Source: Cellulomonas sp. P24 (GTDB lineage: Bacteria; Actinomycetota; Actinomycetes; Actinomycetales; Cellulomonadaceae). From it: a stretch of DNA of 64,000 nucleotides. Under the pieces are notes generated by a model. The model made no database searches. It worked only from the letters and a program-made list of their open reading frames with translations, and had not been told where the DNA came from. Made by a program: the position numbers and the translations under genes. Location: the NCBI RefSeq assembly GCF_024704385.1, contig NZ_JAJDFX010000002.1, positions 3,906,001 through 3,970,000 on the forward strand. Reading direction: 5' to 3'. Positions 10,449 to 19,642 of this stretch are shown here, piece after piece; position 1 is the first letter of the stretch, and each line of letters starts with the position of its first letter.

Positions 10449-12137
10449 TCAGAGCGTCGGGAGCACCCTGTCACGCACCTGCTTGCGGAGGATCTTGCCC
10501 AGCAGCGACCGCGGGGTGTCCTCGATCGGCACGATCCGCCGCGGCACCTTGTAGGCGGCGAGCAGCTCGCGGCAGTGGGAGCGGAGCGCCTCCTCGTCGA
10601 ACACGGCGTCCGGCGCCAGCTCGACGGCCGCGACGACCATCTCGCCGCCGCGCTCAAGAGGCTTGCCGATCACGGCCGCGTCCGTCACCGAGGGATGGAG
10701 GCGCAGCACGGCTTCGACCTCGGACGGCGAGACGTTGAACCCTCCGGTGATGATGAGCTCCTTGGCGCGGTCGACGATGGTGGTGAAGCCGTCGGCGTCC
10801 ACGGTCACGATGTCCCCGGTGCGCAGCCACCCTCCGGGCAGGAGCGTCGCCGCGGTCTCCTCCGGGTTGTTCCAGTACCCGGAGAAGACCTGCGGACCCT
10901 GGAGCAGGAGCTCGCCCGGCTCGCCCTGGCGGACCTCGACGGTCGGGTCGTCCTGGTCGACGACCTTCATGCGGGTGGACGGGAACGGGACACCGATCGT
11001 GCCGGTCCGACGCGTCGGGTGGAACGGGTTGCCGAGGGCGACCGGTGACGACTCGGTCATGCCGTACCCCTCGACGAGGAGGCCACCGGACATCGACTCC
11101 CACAGCTCGACCACGTGGTCCGGGAGGTTCATCGCCCCGGAGATGCAGAACCGGCACGAGCGGAGCGAGACGCCCTTCTCGCGGGCGGCCATCGCGGTGC
11201 GCTCGTAGATCGGCGGCACCGCGCAGTAGACCGTCGCGGGGGACTTCTTCATGGCGTCCAGGACGAGTGCCGGGTCGAACATCGGGAACAGGACGAGAAG
11301 TGCCTGCTTGCGGATCCCGTACGTGAGGTACAGCGTCATGCCGAACGCGTGGAACATCGGCAGGATCGCGTAGAAGATCTCCTTGCGGTACTCCGCGCCG
11401 TGCATCCACGCCTCGCCCTGCAGCGCGTTCGCGTAGAGGTTGAGGTGGGTGAGCATCGCTCCCTTCGGGTGACCGGTCGTCCCCGAGGTGTACTGGATCG
11501 CGGCGAGGTCGTCCACCGTCGGGCGAGGGTGCGCCGGGTCGAGCCGGCCGTGCGAGAGGAGGTCCGCCCACGAGATCGTCCCGGGCGCGGGGGCCGTCAG
11601 CGCGGCACGCGAGGCGCGCAGGCGCGGCACGGGCAGGTGCAGGGCCAGGCGCTTGAGCGGCGGGAAGGCCTGGAGCAGGTCGACCGCGACGACGTGGTCG
11701 ATCTCGACGTCGGACGGGAACGACCGGACCGCGGCGACGGCCTTGTCCCAGGCGATGACGACGCGCGCCTGGTGGTCCTCGAATTGGTGCCGGAGCTCTC
11801 GCGCCGTGTACAGCGGGTTGTGCTCGACGACGACCGCACCCAGTCGCAGCACGGCGTAGAACGCGACGACGTGCTGCGGGCAGTTCGGCAGGATGAGCGC
11901 GACGCGGTCGCCGGCGCGCACGCCGAGGCGGTGCAGACCCTCCGCGGCACGGTCGACCTGCTCACCCAGCTCGGTGTACGTCGTCCGTCGACCGAAGAAC
12001 TCCAGGGCCGGGTGGTTCCCCGCCTCCGAGACGGATCGCTCGAGCATCTCCACGAGCGACTCGGTCGGGAGCTCGATCTCGGCCGGGACACCCGGCTGGT
12101 AGTTCTTCACCCAGGGCTGCTGGTCGGTGGTCGCCAT
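10449..12137 (-). CDS. fadD: Long-chain fatty-acid--CoA ligase (FadD-like)
   Basis: A 562-residue AMP-forming acyl-CoA synthetase. The P-loop motif YTSGTTGHPKG, the A5 motif EGYGMTESSP, the A7 motif GWLRTGDI and the A10 lysine region SLLGKILRK are all intact, so the enzyme should activate a fatty acid to acyl-AMP and then acyl-CoA. Length is typical. A GGGAGGA ribosome site precedes ATG 12137. It lies downstream of the Qmo-like operon on the same strand but after that operon's hairpin, so it probably has its own transcript. Confidence 0.9.
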   Translation of the reverse strand: MATTDQQPWVKNYQPGVPAEIELPTESLVEMLERSVSEAGNHPALEFFGRRTTYTELGEQVDRAAEGLHRLGVRAGDRVALILPNCPQHVVAFYAVLRLGAVVVEHNPLYTARELRHQFEDHQARVVIAWDKAVAAVRSFPSDVEIDHVVAVDLLQAFPPLKRLALHLPVPRLRASRAALTAPAPGTISWADLLSHGRLDPAHPRPTVDDLAAIQYTSGTTGHPKGAMLTHLNLYANALQGEAWMHGAEYRKEIFYAILPMFHAFGMTLYLTYGIRKQALLVLFPMFDPALVLDAMKKSPATVYCAVPPIYERTAMAAREKGVSLRSCRFCISGAMNLPDHVVELWESMSGGLLVEGYGMTESSPVALGNPFHPTRRTGTIGVPFPSTRMKVVDQDDPTVEVRQGEPGELLLQGPQVFSGYWNNPEETAATLLPGGWLRTGDIVTVDADGFTTIVDRAKELIITGGFNVSPSEVEAVLRLHPSVTDAAVIGKPLERGGEMVVAAVELAPDAVFDEEALRSHCRELLAAYKVPRRIVPIEDTPRSLLGKILRKQVRDRVLPTL

Positions 12138-12198
12138 GAGGGCATCCTCCCGCGAATCGGTCGGTCGTGTGCGCGTGCACGCCGGCGCCGGCGGACGA

Positions 12199-12231
12199 CG
12201 AAGCGCCGCGGACCAGGTCCGCGGCGCTTCG
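12199..12231 (-). terminator. Strong hairpin ending the Qmo-like operon
   Basis: A perfect 15-bp stem (12199-12213 paired with 12217-12231) with a 3-nt loop, starting 9 bp beyond the stop of the qmoC-like gene. No U-tract follows, as is common in high-GC actinobacteria. Confidence 0.7.
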
Positions 12232-12239
12232 CGTGCGTG

Positions 12240-13415
12240 TCAGGCGGTCTGCTTCGACTTGTCCTTGGCCAGGGCGAAGAAGAACAGCGCGACCGGCCGG
12301 TACATCGCGTGGGCGAACTTGGTGAACGGCAGGAGCAGCATGAGCTCCATGGCCACCGCGACGTGGAACAGGAAGACCCAGTAGCCCCACGCCGGTGCGT
12401 CCGGCAGGTACAGCGCGACCTCGATGAAGAACCCGCTCGCCCCGGTGATCCAGAGCAGTATCAGCAGGAGCCAGTCCGACGCGGTGGACTGCGCCGCTGC
12501 CCGGTTGATGTGACGCGCACGGTTGACCATGAACATGCTCACGCCGTACACGAGGGAGATGCCGGCGATCGTGCCGAGCAGCCGCGACGGGTACCAGAGG
12601 GGGATCGGGGTGCCGGTCTCCTTGACCCCGGTGAGGGCCAGTCCCCAGTCGAGGATCGTCGCCCCGAGCAGCCCGAGGAAGCCCCAGATGGACAGTGCGT
12701 GGATCAACCAGCGCCGGCGGTACAGCGGTTCGGCCGGGCTGTCGTCCTTGCAGTCCTCGCGGTAGCGGCGTTGCCCCACCGACTCGATGCCGAGCGACGA
12801 CCACAGCGCCGCGACGGACCGTCCGAGTGCTGCCCGCCCGCCGAGGGTCGAGGAGAGGGTGATCCCTTCACGTCGGGCGACCCCGCGAGCCATCGTGACG
12901 ACGCCGACGACGCCGGCGATCACCATGACGACCATCACCGCGATGCCTGTCCAGTGGATGAGCTCCTCGGGGACGAAGTCGAACAGCGTGAGCGCTGCGG
13001 CGTCCTGCGGCCCGTGCGAGGCGTACATGAACACCGCGAAGAACGCCGCGACCGCGACCGCGATGAGCGAACCGATGACCGGCCGGGTGTAGAGGATCCG
13101 GGAGAGCCCGGTCGGGTCGTAGCTCGCCACGGCGTACCGACGAGCAGCCGCCATGAACTCACCCGGGTCCGCCTCGGTCGGGCAGCTGTCGGAGCAGAGC
13201 CCGCAGTGGTAGCAGGTCCACAGCTCCTTGCTCGAGAGCAGCTCGTCCTTCATGCCGACCTGCGCGTAGCGGATCATGCGGCGCGGGAACGTGCCGTCGT
13301 TGTCCGAGAGTGGACAGGTCGCGGTGCACGTCCCGCAGCTGAAGCACGCGGAGACGTCCGCGGCCCCGAACTTCTTGAGGTCCGAGAGAAGGTCGGTGTC
13401 GACGATCGTGGTCAC
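12240..13415 (-). CDS. QmoC-like / HdrC-HdrE fusion, membrane iron-sulfur subunit
   Basis: A 391-residue protein. Residues 20-80 hold two classical [4Fe-4S] motifs, C24-x2-C27-x2-C30-x3-C34P and C68-x2-C71-x2-C74-x3-C78P, as in HdrC. The rest has about six TM helices resembling the cytochrome-b-like HdrE/NarI module, with His residues inside helices (for example MELMLLL... FTKFAHAMYR). This HdrC-HdrE arrangement is that of QmoC, which exchanges electrons between a soluble flavoprotein complex and the menaquinone pool. It is the last gene of the operon and overlaps the preceding gene by 4 bp. Confidence 0.82.
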   Translation of the reverse strand: MTTIVDTDLLSDLKKFGAADVSACFSCGTCTATCPLSDNDGTFPRRMIRYAQVGMKDELLSSKELWTCYHCGLCSDSCPTEADPGEFMAAARRYAVASYDPTGLSRILYTRPVIGSLIAVAVAAFFAVFMYASHGPQDAAALTLFDFVPEELIHWTGIAVMVVMVIAGVVGVVTMARGVARREGITLSSTLGGRAALGRSVAALWSSLGIESVGQRRYREDCKDDSPAEPLYRRRWLIHALSIWGFLGLLGATILDWGLALTGVKETGTPIPLWYPSRLLGTIAGISLVYGVSMFMVNRARHINRAAAQSTASDWLLLILLWITGASGFFIEVALYLPDAPAWGYWVFLFHVAVAMELMLLLPFTKFAHAMYRPVALFFFALAKDKSKQTA

Positions 13416-13663
13416 GGGGCCACCTCCTGGTGGGCGTTCGCGTAGCGGAAGTAGCCGTCGTCGTCTGCGTCCTCGATCTCGATGAGGTGCCCGTACCGGC
13501 GCATCCCCATCACCCAGTACACGACCTCGTCGGTCGGACGATCGAGTGCCGCCGCGATCTCCGGGACGGTGAGCGGACCGTCCGCCACCGCCGCCAGGAT
13601 CGGTTGGTGCATCAGCATCTCCTCGCGGATGACTTCCCGCGGGTCCCGCAGGGTGGTGCTCAT
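13412..13663 (-). CDS. Small winged-helix-like protein of unknown function in the Qmo-like operon
   Basis: An 83-residue acidic protein, overlapping both neighbours by 4 bp (ATGA at each end), so it must be made in step with them. The core ILAAVADGPLTVPEIAAAL and DEVVYWVMGMRRYGHL looks like a helix-turn-helix followed by a wing (IEIEDADDDGYFRYA). It lacks Cys. Because it sits between HdrA- and QmoC-like genes it may be a structural or assembly subunit rather than a DNA-binding regulator. I do not recognise a named family. Confidence 0.7.
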   Translation of the reverse strand: MSTTLRDPREVIREEMLMHQPILAAVADGPLTVPEIAAALDRPTDEVVYWVMGMRRYGHLIEIEDADDDGYFRYANAHQEVAP

Positions 13664-15387
13664 GAGACCGGCTCCTTCGTCAGGCCCTCGATCGATGCCC
13701 GCATCTGGGCGTCGGTGTATCCGAGCAGGTCGATCGCGTCCTCGGTGCAGACCGGGGCACACCCGCCGCAGCCCTTGCACACCGCCGCGCTGATCGTGGC
13801 CACGTCGCGCCCGTCGCACATGATCATCGAGATCGCGTCGTACGGGCAGGTCGTCACGCACGCGGCGCAGCCCGTGCAGGCCTCGGTGTGGACCGTCGCG
13901 ACGAGGGGGTCGAGCTCGGCGAACCCCTTCATGAGGATGCCGGCGCTCTGGGTCACCGCGGCGAGACCGGATGCGACCGACTCCGACGCGGTCTTGGGAC
14001 CCTGGCAGGCGCCGGCGATCATCACGCCGGAGACCACCGTCTCCACGGGGCGGAGCTTCGGGTGGATCTCGTTGTAGAAGCCGTCACCGCCGACCGGGAG
14101 CTTGAGGAGGTCGGTGAGCCCCGTGTTGTCGCGCGGCACCATGCCGGTCACAAGCACGACCAGGTCGGCCGGGATCGTGAGTTCCTCGTTGCCGGTGAGG
14201 GCGTCGACGACGGTGACGGCGACGTGCCCGTCGGCGGTCCGTGCCACGGTGGGGGGCGTGTCGTCGGGGAACCGCATGTACACCGACCCGCGCTCGCGCG
14301 ACTCGGTGTACATCAGCTCGTACTTCCCGTACGTGCGGATGTCGCGGTGCAGGTGGTACTGACGCACCCCGGTGTCGCGGGCGGCGACCTTGATCGAGGC
14401 ATGCACCGTGGCCGAGCAGCAGAACTTCGAGCAGTACTCGTTCCCGCCCTCGGGCTGCCGGTTGCCGACGCAGTAGACGTACGCGATGGTCTTGACGCGC
14501 TTGCCCTGGTAGACGAGCGGACCGTCGGAGTTGTCGACGAGGGTCATGAAGTCGGGCAGCGTCAGGACGCCTTCGATGCCGTAGCCGAACTCGCCGGCCT
14601 CGGGCTCGTAGCTGTCGAAGCCGGTGGCGACCACGATGGTCCCGACCTCCGTCGTGACCAGCTCGTCCTGCCCCTGGATCCGCACCTCGGTGACGTAGTT
14701 GCCGAAGCTCCCGGACTTCGAGACCAGCTCGGCGTTGGTGAGGATCGAGATCGACGGCCGCTTGGCGATCTCGGAGACGAGATGGGCGATCTGCTCCTGG
14801 CCCGAGGAGTCGTGCGGGAACATCGCGCCGAGCTGTCCGACCCAGCCGCCGAGCGTGGGGGCACGCTCGACGATCGTGACCGCGAGCCCGATGTCGGCGA
14901 GGCCGATGGCGGCGCGCAGGCCCGCGACGCCGCCGCCGACGACCATCGTCCGCGGCAGGGTCTTGACGACGAGCGGCTCGAGCGGGGTCGAGAGCTTCGT
15001 CTTGGCGACACCGGCCCGGACGAGCCCGATCGCCTTCTCGGTCGCACCCTCACGGTCGTCGGTGTGCGCCCACGACGCCTGCTCGCGCACGTTGACCTGG
15101 GTGTACGCGTACGGGTTGAGGTCCGCCCGCTTCGCCACCCCCCGGAAGGTGATCTGGTGCAGCTTGGGCGAGCACGAGGCCACGACCAGACCGTCCAGCT
15201 TCTTCTCCTGGATGTCCCGGATCATCTCGTGCTGGGTACCGTCGGCGCACGCGAACATCGTGGTCTCGGCGACCACGACCTCGGGGTCGTCCTTGAACGC
15301 CTCGCGCACCTTCTCCACGTCGACGTAGTCGGAGATGTTGCCACCGCAGTGGCAGATGTAGACGCCGATGCGTCGGTCCTCACTCAT
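13660..15387 (-). CDS. HdrA-like FAD/iron-sulfur protein (QmoB-type)
   Basis: A 575-residue HdrA-type flavoprotein. The N-terminus has the HdrA motif ICHCGGNI (residues 11-18), then ASCSPKLHQ, the FAD dinucleotide fold VVGGGVAGLRAA near residue 150, and the GNRQPEGGNEYCSKFCCS cluster typical of HdrA. Two ferredoxin-type [4Fe-4S] motifs close the protein, C504-x2-C507-x2-C510-x3-C514P and C537-x2-C540-x2-C543-x3-C547. It should act as the electron hub between the NAD(P)H-type partner, the MvhD-like subunit and QmoC. It overlaps both flanking genes by 4 bp. Confidence 0.85.
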   Translation of the reverse strand: MSEDRRIGVYICHCGGNISDYVDVEKVREAFKDDPEVVVAETTMFACADGTQHEMIRDIQEKKLDGLVVASCSPKLHQITFRGVAKRADLNPYAYTQVNVREQASWAHTDDREGATEKAIGLVRAGVAKTKLSTPLEPLVVKTLPRTMVVGGGVAGLRAAIGLADIGLAVTIVERAPTLGGWVGQLGAMFPHDSSGQEQIAHLVSEIAKRPSISILTNAELVSKSGSFGNYVTEVRIQGQDELVTTEVGTIVVATGFDSYEPEAGEFGYGIEGVLTLPDFMTLVDNSDGPLVYQGKRVKTIAYVYCVGNRQPEGGNEYCSKFCCSATVHASIKVAARDTGVRQYHLHRDIRTYGKYELMYTESRERGSVYMRFPDDTPPTVARTADGHVAVTVVDALTGNEELTIPADLVVLVTGMVPRDNTGLTDLLKLPVGGDGFYNEIHPKLRPVETVVSGVMIAGACQGPKTASESVASGLAAVTQSAGILMKGFAELDPLVATVHTEACTGCAACVTTCPYDAISMIMCDGRDVATISAAVCKGCGGCAPVCTEDAIDLLGYTDAQMRASIEGLTKEPVS

Positions 15388-18125
15388 GCCAGCACCTCCG
15401 CCGCGACTGCTGCGTGCTCGACGTGTCCCGCGTGCTCGAGGTGAGCCGCGACCTGGGCGACTGCGGCCCCTGCGTGCAGGATCGAGTCGACGATGTCCTT
15501 GACCCCGGCCGCGGTGCCGGCGACGAAGACGCCGGGGATGTCGGTCCGGCCGGGTTCGAGCTCGTCGTCGGGTTCGGCGACGTAGAAGTACTCGTCGAGA
15601 CCGAGCCTCTCGCCGGTGAAGAGCTTCTCCACCTCGCGGTTCGGCTGGATCCCCACGGCGAGGACGACGAGGTCGTACTCGGCCTCGACGATCGCACCGC
15701 CGTTCTCGATGTCCTCGTAGCGGACGATGAGATCGCCGTTCTCCTTCTCGGTGATCTTGGCCACGCGCCCCTTGATGTACTCGGCGCCCATGTCCTTGGC
15801 CTGCTCGTAGAACTCGTTGTAGCGCTTGCCGGCGGCGCGGATGTCCATGTAGTGCATGGTCACGTCCGCGAGCGGCAGCGCGCCCATGATCAGCTGGTTC
15901 TGCTTGACGGAGTACATGCAGCAGACCTTCGAGCAGAGCGGGTTGCCGGACGTCTTGTCCCGGGAACCGGTGCACGAGACGTACGCGATGCGCTCGGGCA
16001 CCTTCCCGTCGCCCGGACGGAGAACCGTGTTGAACGGGCGCGTCGGTGCGAGGAGGCGGTCCATCTGCATGCCGGTGATGACGTTGGCGTAGGTGCCGTA
16101 GCCGTACTCGGGCTTGAGATCGGCGGCGAAGAGCTTGTACCCGGTCGAGACCACGACCGCGCCGACGGTGATCTCCGAGACGACCTCACGCTTGTCGAAC
16201 CGGATGGCGTCGGCCGGGCAGGCGGACACGCACTCCTGGCACTCCGAGCAGACGCCGCAGTCCAGGCAGCCGCCGGCACCGGCGCGGGCCTCGGCCTCGG
16301 TCAGCGCGGGTTCGAGCTCGTCGAAGTCGACGGGAGCGGGGGAGAAGCGGGTGTCCGGCGTGATGGGCTCGCGCCGGGTGTGGCTCTTCTGCCGTGCCAG
16401 CACCTCGGCCTTGTCGACCGCACCGAGCAGGTCGTCGAGGGCGGGGAAGGTGCCGAGCTCGCGGCCGTTGACCCAGTTGTCGATCATGTAGGCCGCGCGC
16501 CGACCGGCACCGACGGCCCGCGTGATGTCGGTCGCGCCGCTCGTGACGTCGCCCGCCGCGAAGAGGTACGGGACCTCGGTCTGCAGCGTCGTCTCGTCGA
16601 CGGCGATCCGGCTGCCACGCTGGACGCTTGCCAGGTTCTCGAACGGGGTCGGGTCGGGAGCCATCCCGATCGCCGAGATCACGGCGTCGCAGGCGATCAC
16701 GAACTCGCTCCCCGCGATCGGCTCCGGGCGGCGTCGTCCGGACGCATCGGCCTGACCGAGCTGCATGCGCTGGCAGCGGAGACCGGTGACGGCACCGGCA
16801 GCGTCGGTGACGACCGAGACCGGGGCCACGAGGTACTCGAACTCGACGCCTTCCTTCTCGGCGTCCTCGATCTCGGCCGCGTGCGCGGGCATCTCCTCGC
16901 GTCCGCGCCGGTAGGCGACGCGGACCTCGAGGGCACCGAGGCGCCGGGCCGTGCGTGCGGTGTCCATCGCGACGTTGCCGCCGCCGACGACGACCACGCG
17001 CTTCCCGGTGAGCTCGGGGGCCTCGTCGACGCGCACCTGCCGGAGGAAGTCGAGACCGGCGAGCACGCCGTCGGCGTCCTCACCCGGCACGCCGAGCGAC
17101 GTCGCGCGCGGGGTGCCGGTGGCGAGCAGCACGGCGTCGTACCCCTCGGCCTTGAGGGCCTCGAGGTCGCTGATGGACGAGTTCGTCACGATCTCGACGC
17201 CGAGGGCGGTGACGTTGGCGATGTCCTGCTCGACGACCTCCTGCGGGAGGCGGTAGGCCGGCAGCGCGTGCCGCAGGAAGCCGCCCGGCTGGGCCTCGGC
17301 CTCGTGGATGCGGACCTGGTAGCCGAGCCGCGCGAGCTGCCACGCCGCCGTGAGTCCGGCCGGGCCGGATCCGACGATCGCGACGCTCTTGCCGTTGGGG
17401 GTGGGCATCTCGACGCCCGGTCCGTCCACCTCGGCGTAGTGACGATCGGCGGCGAACCGCTTGAGCCGGCGGATCGGGATCGTCCCCTCGAGGGCGCCGC
17501 GGGAGCACTCCGACTCGCACGGGGCGTAGCACGCGCGCCCCAGGGTCCCGACCAGCGGGGTCGCGTCGAGGACGAGCTGGAACGCCTCTTCGTACTTGCC
17601 GCTCCGGATCAGCGAGACGTAGCCGTGCGCCTTGATGCCGGCAGGGCAGTTGTCGATGCACGGCGACGTGCCGGCCCGCGTGATCACGGCCTTCTTCGGC
17701 ACGGCCTGCGGGAACGCGATGTAGGCCGCGCGGCGTGCCACGAGGTCGGAGTTGAACTCGTCGGGCACCGCGACGGTGCAGGCGGTCTGGCACTCGTTGC
17801 AGCCGGTGCAGGCGGCCCAGTCGACGAACGTCGACTTCTCCTTCACGGTGGCGCGGAACGCACCGTTGCTCTCCCGCTTGACCCCCAGGACCTCGCTGTA
17901 GGTCTTGGTGGTGATGTTGGGGTGGTTGATGGTCGACGACATCTTCGGGCCGGAGATGCAGCTCGCGCAGTCGAGGGTCGGGAAGACCTTGCTGAGCAGG
18001 ATCATCCGTCCGCCGACGCTCGCCTCCTTCTCGACGAGCAGGACCTTGTAGCCCATGTCGGCGAGCTTGATCGACGACTCCATCCCACCAATGCCACTGC
18101 CGATCACGAGGACGTCGTAGTCCAT
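15384..18125 (-). CDS. HdrA-like protein with inserted GltD-type NAD(P)H oxidoreductase module
   Basis: A 913-residue multidomain flavoprotein. Residues 1-120 begin an HdrA module (GSGIGGMESS FAD motif; C106-C109-C112-C116 cluster). Residues about 150-570 are a complete GltD-like unit: Cys at 156, 160, 199, 203 and 207 for [4Fe-4S], FAD motif VGSGPAGLTAAW at 251-262, NAD(P)H motif VVGGGNVAMDTA near 380 and the AAGDVTSGA end motif. Residues 619-635 are Cys-rich (CLDCGVCSECQECVSAC), and the HdrA part resumes with CTGSRDKTSGNPLCSKVCC at 717-735. The predicted role is electron transfer or bifurcation linking NAD(P)H to the Qmo-like complex. It starts at ATG 18125. Confidence 0.85.
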   Translation of the reverse strand: MDYDVLVIGSGIGGMESSIKLADMGYKVLLVEKEASVGGRMILLSKVFPTLDCASCISGPKMSSTINHPNITTKTYSEVLGVKRESNGAFRATVKEKSTFVDWAACTGCNECQTACTVAVPDEFNSDLVARRAAYIAFPQAVPKKAVITRAGTSPCIDNCPAGIKAHGYVSLIRSGKYEEAFQLVLDATPLVGTLGRACYAPCESECSRGALEGTIPIRRLKRFAADRHYAEVDGPGVEMPTPNGKSVAIVGSGPAGLTAAWQLARLGYQVRIHEAEAQPGGFLRHALPAYRLPQEVVEQDIANVTALGVEIVTNSSISDLEALKAEGYDAVLLATGTPRATSLGVPGEDADGVLAGLDFLRQVRVDEAPELTGKRVVVVGGGNVAMDTARTARRLGALEVRVAYRRGREEMPAHAAEIEDAEKEGVEFEYLVAPVSVVTDAAGAVTGLRCQRMQLGQADASGRRRPEPIAGSEFVIACDAVISAIGMAPDPTPFENLASVQRGSRIAVDETTLQTEVPYLFAAGDVTSGATDITRAVGAGRRAAYMIDNWVNGRELGTFPALDDLLGAVDKAEVLARQKSHTRREPITPDTRFSPAPVDFDELEPALTEAEARAGAGGCLDCGVCSECQECVSACPADAIRFDKREVVSEITVGAVVVSTGYKLFAADLKPEYGYGTYANVITGMQMDRLLAPTRPFNTVLRPGDGKVPERIAYVSCTGSRDKTSGNPLCSKVCCMYSVKQNQLIMGALPLADVTMHYMDIRAAGKRYNEFYEQAKDMGAEYIKGRVAKITEKENGDLIVRYEDIENGGAIVEAEYDLVVLAVGIQPNREVEKLFTGERLGLDEYFYVAEPDDELEPGRTDIPGVFVAGTAAGVKDIVDSILHAGAAVAQVAAHLEHAGHVEHAAVAAEVLA

Positions 18126-18171
18126 CGGTGACTCCAGTTCTGTGTTGTCTGCGGCGCGATCCTGCGACGCG

Positions 18172-18651
18172 CTAGATGAACAGGTTGACGTTCGCCTCGT
18201 CCGCGTCGCCCAGGTAGGAGGCGACTCCGGCGAACTCGAGGCCGTCGATCAGCTCTTCGGCGCGGAGGCCCATGATGTCCATCGACATCGTGCAGGCGAC
18301 CATCTTGATGCCCTGCTCGCGTGCCGTGGCGATGAGCTCCTCGAGCGACATCACGTTCTGCTGGCGCATCATCCGCTGCATGAGCTTGGGGCCGGCGCCG
18401 GCGAAGTTCATGTGCGAGAGGGCGAGCCGCCCGGGACCCCGGGGCATCATCGCGGCGAAGGCCTTCTGCAGCGGGCTCTTGCGCGTCGTCGCGACCTTCT
18501 CCGGTCGCCGAAGGGCGTTGAGCCCCCAGAACGTGAAGAACATCGTGACGTCGTCATCCATCGCCGCGGCACCGTTGGCGATGATGAACGCCGCCATCAC
18601 CTTGTCGAAGTCCCCGCTGAACAGGATGATCGTCTTGCGTGTGGTGTCCAC
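18172..18651 (-). CDS. DsrE2-family sulfur carrier protein
   Basis: A 159-residue DsrE/DsrF/DrsH-like protein beginning VDTTRKTIILFSGDFDK. The only cysteine is C120 in MVACTMSMDIMG, the pattern of the DsrE2 subfamily, where it carries persulfide. Hydrophobic stretches are absent except in the fold core. GTG 18651 has GAAGGAAG upstream. Its place between the MvhD-like and HdrA-like genes and in one operon with tusA points to sulfur relay toward or from the Qmo-like complex. Confidence 0.82.
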   Translation of the reverse strand: MDTTRKTIILFSGDFDKVMAAFIIANGAAAMDDDVTMFFTFWGLNALRRPEKVATTRKSPLQKAFAAMMPRGPGRLALSHMNFAGAGPKLMQRMMRQQNVMSLEELIATAREQGIKMVACTMSMDIMGLRAEELIDGLEFAGVASYLGDADEANVNLFI

Positions 18652-18683
18652 CGTTCCGGCTTCCTTCTCTCGTTGATCGTCGG

Positions 18684-19109
18684 TCACGGGGTGACGTCGA
18701 CGGGGCCCATGTCCACCAACATCTGCGAGAACTCCCGCATGTAGTTGACGAACGGTTCGGCGCACACCGAGCAGACGGCGGCCATCTTCAGCCGCTGGGG
18801 CTCGATCCCTCGGGCCTTCATGAGCTCCTGCGCCTGGGTGACGATGTGCGACGTGCGCTCGGCGCATTCGGGGAGCAGCGCGCACTCCTCGCCGTCCGAG
18901 GCGATGAACACCCCGTCGAGCCCGGTCTCGAACGCGTGCAGGATCCATCCGGGCTTGAGCCCGCTGCTGCACGGGACGCTCATCGTCGAGACGGTGGCCG
19001 AGTAGTGCAGGTGCCTGCTGCCGGCGAGGTCGATGCCCGGGTCGGAGATGTTGTTGGTCGAGAAGACGAGGATCCTCGGCGAGAACCCGGTGACGGTCGC
19101 GGTCGACAC
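18684..19109 (-). CDS. MvhD/FlpD-like hydrogenase iron-sulfur (delta) subunit
   Basis: A 141-residue protein related to methyl-viologen-reducing hydrogenase delta subunit (MvhD), a [2Fe-2S] electron-transfer partner of HdrA. Cysteines at 47 (VPCSSG), 76, 82, 113 and 116 (VCSVC) are the likely ligands; the family's typical GCH segment is replaced by SDGEEC. In Desulfovibrio QmoB this domain is fused to the HdrA part, whereas here it is a separate gene. No hydrogenase genes are nearby, so the donor is probably not H2. Confidence 0.8.
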   Translation of the reverse strand: MSTATVTGFSPRILVFSTNNISDPGIDLAGSRHLHYSATVSTMSVPCSSGLKPGWILHAFETGLDGVFIASDGEECALLPECAERTSHIVTQAQELMKARGIEPQRLKMAAVCSVCAEPFVNYMREFSQMLVDMGPVDVTP

Positions 19110-19116
19110 GATCAGG

Positions 19117-19377
19117 TCACTTCATCTTGCGGAGGTACAGGTGGAGGTACCCGGCATCGTCGAACGAGCCGAGGAACTCGTGCCCCATCTTCTTGGACCA
19201 GGCCGGGAGGTCCTTCAGCGTGCCCGAGTCGGTGGCGAGGACCTCCATCACACCGTTCACCGGCACGCCGCCGATGGCCTTCTTGGCGGCCAGGATCGGT
19301 CCGGGGCACGAGGTTCCTCGTGCGTCGACGACCTGGGCGATCGTGAGTGCCTTGAGCTCCTCAGCGGCGACCGTCAT
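19117..19377 (-). CDS. tusA: TusA/SirA-family sulfur carrier
   Basis: An 86-residue TusA-like protein with the diagnostic DARGTSCPGPILAAKKAI, in which C24 of the CPxP motif carries persulfide sulfur. A strong AAGGAGG ribosome site precedes ATG 19377. It is the first gene of the operon, 7 bp before the MvhD-like gene. In sulfur oxidisers and reducers TusA passes sulfane sulfur between rhodanese, DsrE and Hdr-like complexes, which fits the company here. Confidence 0.88.
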   Translation of the reverse strand: MTVAAEELKALTIAQVVDARGTSCPGPILAAKKAIGGVPVNGVMEVLATDSGTLKDLPAWSKKMGHEFLGSFDDAGYLHLYLRKMK

Positions 19378-19604: not shown

Positions 19605-19642
19605 TACCCCCGGGGGTATGCCTTTTTCTACCCCTGGGGGTA
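19605..19642. promoter_or_regulatory. Two tandem CsoR/CstR-type operator palindromes
   Basis: TACCCCCGGGGGTA (19605-19618, perfect palindrome) and TACCCCTGGGGGTA (19629-19642) are centred 24 bp apart inside a 20-bp direct repeat that also includes the trailing TGCCT. The form matches the GC-tract operators of CsoR/RcnR/CstR repressors (for CstR ATACCCC-N-GGGGTAT). CstR senses persulfides, which fits the TusA/DsrE2/Qmo-like operon downstream on the minus strand. No such repressor gene is in the window. Confidence 0.6.

Follow-up and report, generated by a model that had tools for sequence, protein, structure and literature searches.

A Qmo/Hdr-like operon with TusA, DsrE2 and a GltD-inserted HdrA in Cellulomonas and its predicted link to sulfane sulfur

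Qmo-like complexes are found both in organisms that have Apr and Dsr and in organisms that do not; homologues lacking these partners have been called 'type II' Qmo, of unknown function, and a published survey calls for experiments on their role (PMC10504309). Expressed 'qmoABC' has been reported from pit-lake MAGs of actinobacteria, which contain dsrAB as well (PMC9326234). An HdrA with an NfnB/GltD module inserted within its ferredoxin domain and the Lys409 equivalent kept, known as type III HdrA, occurs in ANME-1 and Bathyarchaeota, with a published count of nine archaeal sequences (PMC9012536, PMC12054007). The sHdr system unites Hdr subunits with TusA and DsrE carriers in Thermomicrobium (PMC6776052) and is under sulfane-sulfur-responsive control in Hyphomicrobium (PMC12423496, PMC10451225), while DsrL, a separate protein acting with DsrAB, serves as the NAD(P)H:acceptor unit of a sulfur enzyme in the cytoplasm (PMC7596348). 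Hdr loci of D. reducens with a large NADH-binding HdrA have been proposed to reduce DsrC (PMC4759654). On the regulatory side, ScCsoR of Streptomyces recognises ATACC-n6-GGTAT sites in front of PDO and rhodanese genes and of the gene encoding ScCsoR, and sulfane sulfur frees it from the DNA; a TauE sulfite transporter belongs to the same circuit (PMC7533328).

We analyzed an actinobacterial operon of Qmo/Hdr-like type. GltD-inserted HdrA has an archaeal precedent; in the open-access literature searched, we found no description of the bacterial operon, and the available parts of PMC6405883, PMC12142623, PMC9326234 and PMC13293266 do not describe it.

Gene order and subunit architecture

The window, a 64,000-nucleotide stretch of the Cellulomonas sp. 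P24 genome, contains the following features:

19605..19642 (19605-19618 and 19629-19642), no strand assigned: predicted CsoR/CstR-type operator palindrome pair, TACCC-N4-GGGTA, 228-265 nt upstream of the tusA start
19117..19377, minus strand: tusA, sulfur carrier (PF01206, 69.8 bits)
18684..19109, minus strand: mvhD/FlpD-like electron-transfer protein (PF02662, 93 bits)
18172..18687, minus strand: dsrE2-type sulfur carrier (PF13686, DrsE_2, 212 bits, well above the Pfam cut-off)
15384..18125, minus strand: hdrA with inserted GltD/NfnB module, 913 aa, QmoA-equivalent (HdrA and NAD(P)-binding GltD-type domains)
13660..15387, minus strand: second hdrA (HdrA2), 575 aa, QmoB-equivalent
13412..13663, minus strand: 83-residue conserved protein, predicted winged helix (predicted structure, pLDDT 90)
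12240..13415, minus strand: QmoC-like subunit, two [4Fe-4S] motifs and a membrane part (NF038018, 206.3 bits, cut-off 300)
12190..12245, minus strand: stable hairpin at the operon end, after qmoC (folding compared with shuffles; without a T run)

All seven genes lie on the minus strand in the order tusA, mvhD, dsrE2, hdrA-gltD, second hdrA, 83-residue gene and qmoC-like, as the initial annotation had given them, and the family calls hold against Pfam and NCBIfam profiles. The ATGA overlaps ascribed to the last four genes are found at two of the three junctions, the third being GTGA like the mvhD/dsrE2 junction, and a gap of about 46 nt separates dsrE2 from hdrA-gltD. The strong hairpin noted at the operon end is indeed stable, folding at -37.5 kcal/mol (z -5.25), a value that 0 of 200 shuffles matched, but it has no T run and is not among the sites of the terminator scan.

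The sulfur carriers retain their cysteines. TusA has a CPGP motif with Cys24 in 75 of the 75 homologues scored, and Cys132 of DsrE2 is invariant (56/56 scored); the start codon of the latter is uncertain (18687 or 18651), and its score for the equivalog NF047629 is 86.6 bits against a cut-off of 210. Five cysteines are invariant in the homologue alignment of the MvhD-like protein, which is the counterpart of the MvhD part located after QmoB where the locus is apr-linked. The 83-residue protein gave no Pfam or NCBIfam match above cut-off; its model has one PDB fold match with E < 0.001 and many winged helices just above, and we claim only this fold class, as predicted, and nothing narrower.

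The HdrA-GltD protein contains both expected domains; rather than forming the simple fusion first described, however, the GltD part (~153-560) splits the internal ferredoxin of HdrA, whose parts cover ~1-150 and ~620-900. The two ferredoxin halves, Cys106-116 before the insert and Cys620-636 after it, are each conserved in 80/80 sequences. Lys741, corresponding to HdrA Lys409, is present in 79/79, but residue 689, corresponding to Glu356, is Asp in 75/80 and Glu in 5/80, and bifurcation by this protein is therefore uncertain. A complete GXGXXA nucleotide motif is found in 75/80; residue 386, its last, is Ala in 80/80, and the NAD-type GXGXXG motif is absent. In this motif and in the Asp replacing Glu356 the protein differs from archaeal type III HdrA (PMC9012536, PMC12054007), as it does in being bacterial and in sitting within a Qmo-like sulfur operon. 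Its AlphaFold2 model is of moderate quality (pLDDT 80.6, pTM 0.61, residues 36-57 and 119-151 below pLDDT 50). The 50 PDB matches listed were Nfn/GltD/DPD-type chains, with Nfn/GltD the best and no HdrA among them; the model therefore supports the GltD insert and not the HdrA part. HdrA2 lacks an MvhD part and the internal ferredoxin, and the Lys409 and Glu356 equivalents are each missing in 77/78 sequences. The HdrA2 tree places the window locus, at support 0.99, among actinobacterial loci that include those of Cellulomonas and Actinotalea.

The Qmo/Hdr-like architecture originally suggested is borne out, as two HdrA-like subunits, an MvhD part and an HdrC-cytochrome b subunit are all present. 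The parts match one by one those of canonical aprA-qmoAB(-hdrCB) loci from four genomes of Bacillota. QmoA of these loci has no GltD insert, and an MvhD part comes directly after QmoB; identity to the apr-linked Qmo parts of these four carrier genomes is about 26-39%. Among QmoC-like homologues, eight cysteines and four histidines (154, 239, 351, 369) are invariant (46/46), the histidines being candidate ligands as expected for two haems b. All 47 QmoC-like proteins matched the QmoC equivalog NF038018 and none reached its cut-off, the best match having E 1.4e-63 (~215 bits, converted). The operon thus shares with QmoABC and QmoAB-HdrBC of sulfate reducers the QmoA-, QmoB- and QmoC-equivalents, the exchange of QmoC and HdrCB, and the cluster and haem ligands. 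Unlike them, it has a GltD insert in QmoA and MvhD as a separate gene, adds TusA, DsrE2, the winged-helix protein and CstR-type operators, and belongs to a genome without aprAB.

Distribution and apr/dsr context

The initial annotation had proposed searching actinobacterial genomes for co-occurrence of the seven genes. We found 382 relatives of the HdrA-GltD fusion in GTDB species genomes and scored the gene set in the best 80 loci. These carry essentially the same set, which recurs in actinobacteria but also beyond them, in records titled Actinomycetota, Chloroflexi and Bacillota; the description of a purely actinobacterial system was accordingly too narrow and is rejected. Of the best 80 of the 382 loci, many of which end at contig ends, 75 had tusA, 75 mvhD, 77 hdrA2, 70 the 83-aa protein and 46 a full QmoC-like protein, each at >=75% of the query, and 23 had HdrC and an HdrB-like protein instead of QmoC. 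As the set recurs in three phyla, it is no chance assembly. Named carriers include Cellulomonas sp. SG140, Actinotalea lenta, Desulfoscipio geothermicus and Desulfotruncus, and the distribution is patchy: among 396 genomes from the order, 1 has a full-length fusion.

The reported absence of aprAB and dsrAB from the window extends to the whole genome (98.3% complete, 2 contigs), where the profile search found neither aprA nor dsrA over cut-off; the complex is therefore not the Qmo of an APS reductase. Genome-wide presence of these genes was one of the findings that the initial annotation named as refuting its reading, which thus withstands this genomic check. Among 40 cluster-bearing genomes tested, aprA was over cut-off in nine, presumed sulfate reducers, and dsrA in the same nine; the four of these whose apr locus was read have a separate apr-linked qmo. 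Membership in sHdr was likewise rejected. The profile search found no HdrB1/HdrB2 CCG subunit among the seven genes, and the six PF02754 matches of the genome are all in open frames of 760-1379 aa. The operon also differs from sHdr in having no lipoate-binding protein among its seven genes and in its membrane QmoC and NADP(H) module, and from DsrL systems (PMC7596348) in that the genome has no DsrAB.

Operators and predicted regulon

The palindrome pair before tusA was not part of the initial annotation. A terminator-like site called at 19605 by the terminator scan was reread as an operator palindrome; by pattern, both palindromes of the pair (19605-19618 and 19629-19642) match the literature type TACC-n6-GGTA (PMC7533328). 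The whole-genome search (4.42 Mb, N2-6 spacers) gave 26 sites versus 3 for the reversed control pattern. Across 74 related loci, 29 of 41 motif sites fell within the 450 nt before tusA, representing 2.4% of the bases, and the exact operator preceded tusA in only 19 of the 74, none of them Chloroflexi-titled.

Seven of the 14 N4 sites in the genome lie before the operon or sulfur genes, three inside predicted genes and three before other genes, with one lacking a clear target. The sulfur targets are a trx and a CstR-like gene; a rhodanese and CoADR-rhodanese; a rhodanese, MBL-rhodanese (PDO-like) and TauE; SQR, DsrC/TusE and a DsrE2-like gene; and a rhodanese lipoprotein (trx and the short rhodaneses named by eye). 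The persulfide-dioxygenase-like (PDO-like) and CoA-disulfide-reductase-like (CoADR-like) proteins score below NCBIfam equivalog cut-offs, and an SQR-like gene named by eye, with an N3 site, has no Pfam match and reaches 30 of the 525 bits required by NF049943. Three other actinomycetes that carry the cluster gave 25 more sites, of which 12 were within 350 nt before such sulfur genes and 13 had no recognised target. A clean split between N4 (persulfide) and N5 (copper) operators proved only partly true: two N5 sites precede copper-type genes (L172 and L179, by eye) and one an ArsP permease, but the others are not before copper-type genes. Four PF02583 proteins are encoded in the genome, two of which (L149 and L150) have two Cys and, read by eye against L147, Gly at the place of the Cu-ligand His. 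By motif, the operators before tusA and sulfur genes lend the suggested sulfane-sulfur link independent regulatory support. Operator type and SQR, PDO, TauE and rhodanese targets resemble those of the CstR, ScCsoR and YrkD regulons, and the YrkD cluster also has DsrE and TusA homologues, but the available text on these regulons describes no Hdr/Qmo genes (PMC7533328, PMC9918477).

Proposed function and alternatives

We propose, with a probability of roughly 0.4, that the operon encodes a Qmo-type complex that has been turned from APS metabolism to sulfane sulfur, is induced by the latter, is linked to both NADP(H) and menaquinone, and acts oxidatively on TusA/DsrE2 persulfide. Persulfide would be formed from sulfide or thiosulfate by SQR and rhodaneses, which belong to the same predicted regulon, and TusA and DsrE2 would carry it to an HdrA/HdrA2/MvhD core. 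Electrons of the carrier-bound sulfur would enter the flavin of the HdrA-GltD protein, which may be able to split them, one branch leading by way of the clusters of the interrupted ferredoxin and the flavin of the GltD module to NADP+, the probable preference, and the other by way of the [4Fe-4S] clusters and haems b of QmoC to menaquinone or, in soluble variants, to HdrC/HdrB; the product may be sulfite or thiosulfate. A repressor, possibly the CstR-like protein, would block transcription until sulfane sulfur lifts the block. Surplus sulfane sulfur could then be removed, to the gain of the cell, by a route that needs no O2 and runs alongside the O2-dependent persulfide dioxygenase. The recurrence of the gene set, its match to canonical Qmo loci, the concentration of motif sites before tusA, the sulfur genes of the predicted regulon, the ScCsoR parallel, the invariant Cys of TusA, MvhD, DsrE2 and the HdrA-GltD clusters, the four QmoC His and the retained Lys409 equivalent count for this reading. 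Against it, a catalytic centre able to oxidise sulfur by four electrons is not apparent, and the QmoC form lacks HdrB; the loci without the exact operator, the motif sites without a sulfur target, the Asp at the Glu356 position and the sub-cut-off scores of the PDO-like and CoADR-like proteins weigh in the same direction.

Hdr-type enzymes are two-electron disulfide reductases, and a tenable alternative, to which we give somewhat less credence, is that NADPH and/or menaquinol reduce the TusA/DsrE2 persulfide to sulfide, in detoxification or sulfur respiration. The nine carriers with aprA and dsrA and the reductive genes of the predicted regulon (CoADR-rhodanese and thioredoxin) speak for reduction and against oxidation, and the GXGXXA motif suggests NADP(H), usually a reductant (criterion from PMC12054007). 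SQR, PDO-like and TauE genes in the same predicted regulon point instead to oxidation, the soluble CoADR-rhodanese would already suffice for reduction, and reduction has no need of menaquinone coupling; on direction, we thus slightly favour oxidation.

The remaining readings fare worse. Flx-Hdr-like NADPH:menaquinone or thiol/disulfide redox balancing, with TusA or DsrC/TusE as thiol partner and sulfur a mere cofactor, would follow the D. reducens proposal (PMC4759654) and fit the DsrC/TusE-family gene (L188) in the predicted regulon, but it is improbable, as the operon has CstR-type operators and includes two dedicated sulfur carriers, and the DsrC/TusE-like protein is encoded elsewhere. In other bacteria, TusA and DsrE-type proteins take part in tRNA thiolation; a biosynthetic role in which the complex serves the redox needs of sulfur carriers (for tRNA thiolation, Moco or Fe-S) nevertheless seems very unlikely for so patchily spread a cluster with persulfide-type operators. 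The QmoA/B/C domain correspondence would suit a classical electron donor or acceptor of APS reductase, a role we give almost no weight: it is already contradicted by the aprA and dsrA searches, the separate apr-linked qmo of the four carriers read and the failure of every QmoC-like protein to reach the equivalog cut-off.

Extending the proposal to the family is more doubtful. It would add to rDsr, sHdr and SQR/PDO another pathway for sulfane sulfur in the cytoplasm, in which an O2-independent Qmo-type complex bifurcates the electrons of carrier-bound persulfide between menaquinone and NADP+, or works backwards by confurcation. QmoC and HdrCB would be interchangeable as outlets, a CstR-type persulfide sensor would switch the complex on in part of its range, and it would be common to heterotrophic Actinomycetota, Chloroflexota and Bacillota presumed to reduce sulfate. 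For one group of Qmo-like complexes, the gene set is now defined, together with its sulfur carriers, a site of NADP(H) entry and a predicted switch that senses persulfide, and the role of Qmo-like complexes is therefore testable in named carrier strains. The operon points to unrecognised reactive-sulfur handling in bacteria of several phyla. If the proposal is true, heterotrophs not classed as sulfur bacteria would be able to pass electrons to or from sulfane sulfur in the absence of O2, and surveys based on dsr, sox or sHdr genes would overlook them.

Gene content and distribution of the operon

The seven genes lie where the initial annotation had placed them, and Pfam and NCBIfam agree on all of its family calls except for the 83-residue protein, which no Pfam or NCBIfam family matched over its cut-off. 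This predicted winged-helix protein may be a structural or regulatory subunit.

10449-12137, minus strand: AMP-binding (acyl-CoA ligase-type) gene, directly 3' of the operon, its relative position kept in the near relative L067
between 12240 and 19377, minus strand: TusA, FlpD/MvhD, DsrE2-type protein, HdrA with a GltD-type NAD(P)-binding module (HdrA-GltD), second HdrA (HdrA2), 83-residue protein, QmoC-like protein

Of the ATGA overlaps claimed among the last four genes two are present, but one junction is GTGA; the terminal hairpin is stable as claimed (z -5.25) but lacks a T run. We found no description of the operon in the openly accessible literature searched; the Hdr loci of D. reducens encode a large HdrA that binds NADH (PMC4759654).

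Among 396 genomes sampled from the order, with the two best candidates scored per genome, only the own genome (4.42 Mb, 2 contigs, 98.3% complete) gave a full-length HdrA-GltD match; 46 others matched at E 1e-60 or better, solely inside residues 109-642, the GltD part. A QmoC-like protein at at least 50% identity occurred in 3 of 396 genomes of the phylum, own included. Scanning 84,980 species genomes yielded 382 relatives of the fusion, and the best 80 were retained. By record titles, of which single MAG titles may be wrong, these best 80 of 382 belong to Actinomycetota (Cellulomonas, Actinotalea, Propionibacteriaceae, Acidimicrobiaceae, Thermoleophilia and others), Chloroflexi and Bacillota (Desulfoscipio, Desulfotruncus, Desulfallas, Desulfofundulus and MAGs), a wider range than that of the "actinobacterial" system proposed initially. 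In the same best 80 of 382, matches that covered 75% or more of the query were found for tusA (75/80), mvhD (75/80), hdrA2 (77/80), the 83-residue protein (70/80), dsrE2-type genes (56/80) and full QmoC-like proteins (46/80); DsrE2 matched at at least 55% identity, at any length, in 48 loci, and in 23 an HdrC-type and an HdrB-like protein occupy the place of QmoC. The one HdrB-like protein tested, from L114, has a single CCG domain.

In a tree of 88 HdrA2 sequences, in which two contigs, judged by their length, apparently appear twice (L066 = L130, L061 = L106) and several deep nodes have low support, the window groups with Cellulomonas-type loci (support 0.99). One large clade has QmoC; several branches outside it carry the HdrCB form, and a separate QmoC form is found in L063/L130/L066. 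L067 and L068 are near-copies of the window's locus; L068 is filed under a Proteobacteria MAG (BP9.bin99) with cluster proteins 91-98% identical to the window's, reflecting either mis-binning or very recent transfer. Four Chloroflexi-titled loci (L086, L087, L092, L123) carry a second, distant tusA and two DsrE-type genes about 5 kb downstream on the opposite strand, close to a gene assigned by eye as TauE/SafE-like.

Relation to apr-linked Qmo and residues of the proposed electron path

Genome-wide presence of aprAB or dsrAB co-regulated with the operon had been named initially as evidence against a non-classical role; neither aprA nor dsrA exceeded its cut-off in the own genome. The three PF01077 matches there lie in two frames, one of 706 aa and one of 533 aa, and are not a dsrAB pair. 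Across 40 cluster-bearing genomes (the own and those of 39 of the 80 loci, mostly MAGs of unknown completeness), aprA was over the cut-off in 9 and dsrA in the same 9. The apr locus, read in four of these nine, has aprA, then QmoA without the GltD insert, then QmoB directly followed by an MvhD part, with HdrC- or HdrB-type proteins at two of the four. This part-by-part match equates HdrA-GltD with QmoA, HdrA2 plus MvhD with QmoB, and QmoC/HdrCB with the same modules. The two sets of proteins share about 26-39% identity in the four genomes, the cluster being a paralogue distinct from the apr-linked Qmo. None of 47 QmoC-like proteins reached the QmoC equivalog cut-off. The gene set does not depend on the GltD insert, as one genome (G007, locus L062) has tusA, mvhD, hdrA, hdrA2, an 83-residue-like protein and QmoC with an hdrA lacking it.

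All cluster cysteines of HdrA-GltD, five of MvhD, four QmoC histidines, TusA Cys24 (CPGP motif) and DsrE2 Cys132 are invariant among the homologues scored, and 67 of 76 HdrA2 sequences retain the ferredoxin Cys507. The GltD module lies between Cys106-116 and Cys620-636 and so interrupts the internal ferredoxin of HdrA, the same position as in HdrA9-11 of ANME-1 (PMC9012536) and in "type III" HdrA (PMC12054007). The AlphaFold2 model of HdrA-GltD is of moderate quality; the 50 PDB matches listed comprise Nfn, glutamate synthase and DPD chains, with no HdrA chain among them. Lys741 of the fusion corresponds to Lys409, held as a mark of electron-bifurcating HdrA, and is Lys in 79/79; the Glu356 equivalent is Asp in 75/80 and Glu in 5/80. 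HdrA2 (n = 78) has His (69), Gln (7), Ala (1) or Lys (1) at the Lys409 position and Lys (59), Glu (1) or others at the Glu356 position. The nucleotide motif of the fusion is GXGXXA in 75/80, with a final Gly in 0/80, which favours NADP(H) by the criterion of PMC12054007; the following Arg406 is replaced in 16/80, so some members may differ.

Predicted sulfane-sulfur regulon and possible direction of the proposed complex

Two TACCC-N4-GGGTA palindromes lie 228-265 nt 5' of tusA and are of the same site type as ATACC-n6-GGTAT, which Streptomyces ScCsoR binds; ScCsoR represses a persulfide dioxygenase, a rhodanese and its own gene, and sulfane sulfur releases it (PMC7533328). A simple terminator scan labels one palindrome (19605-19618) a plus-strand terminator. 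Upstream sequence is available for 74 of the best 80 loci; of the 41 sites in them, 29 are at most 450 nt before tusA, spread over 19 loci, a 98-fold excess whose binomial value (6e-38) is too extreme owing to relatedness among loci (e.g., L067/L068 and L106/L109/L110). No Chloroflexi-titled locus was among these 19 of 74. Nine loci have a CsoR-family gene close to the cluster (PF02583 checked on one). In L126 (8812-9543), an open frame joins an ArsR-type HTH and TusA (PF01022 + PF01206), a regulator adjoining, or fused to, the cluster's first gene.

The own genome holds 26 sites of the looser form (N2-6) vs. 3 of the reversed control pattern. Its 14 N4 sites include two before the operon and five before sulfur genes:

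thioredoxin (by eye) and CstR-like gene
short rhodanese (by eye) and CoA-disulfide-reductase/rhodanese protein
short rhodanese (by eye), MBL-rhodanese protein and TauE
SQR, DsrC/TusE-family gene and DsrE2-like gene
rhodanese lipoprotein

Three of the others are inside predicted genes, three precede other genes and one has no clear target. The CoADR-like protein falls short of its equivalog cut-off; for the PDO-like protein, MBL and rhodanese domains are the only matches. The SQR (NF049943 over cut-off), DsrC/TusE-family and DsrE2-like genes form one likely operon (L188:4494-6620; G000:C2 about 4051.5-4053.6 kb), standing behind its N4 site; the genome has no dsrAB pair. Of the genome's four CsoR-family proteins, two keep the two Cys and have Gly for the copper-ligand His. 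Of 25 more N4 sites examined in three other cluster-bearing actinomycetes, 12 precede a relative of these genes (start within 350 nt, correct direction) and 13 do not. An ArsP-type permease with three YHS domains lies behind TACCC-N5-GGGTA in the own genome (L187:4328-6420).

We conclude that the operon product is a predicted sulfane-sulfur-induced Qmo-type complex, whose sulfur partner would be a TusA/DsrE2 persulfide and whose electron partners would be menaquinone and NADP(H). By textbook values, the midpoint potential of the thiol/persulfide couple lies between those of NADP+ and menaquinone and thus suits bifurcating oxidation or confurcating reduction alike. With the reductive direction of the same complex close behind, we lean towards sulfur oxidation, because SQR, the PDO-like protein and TauE belong to the predicted regulon.
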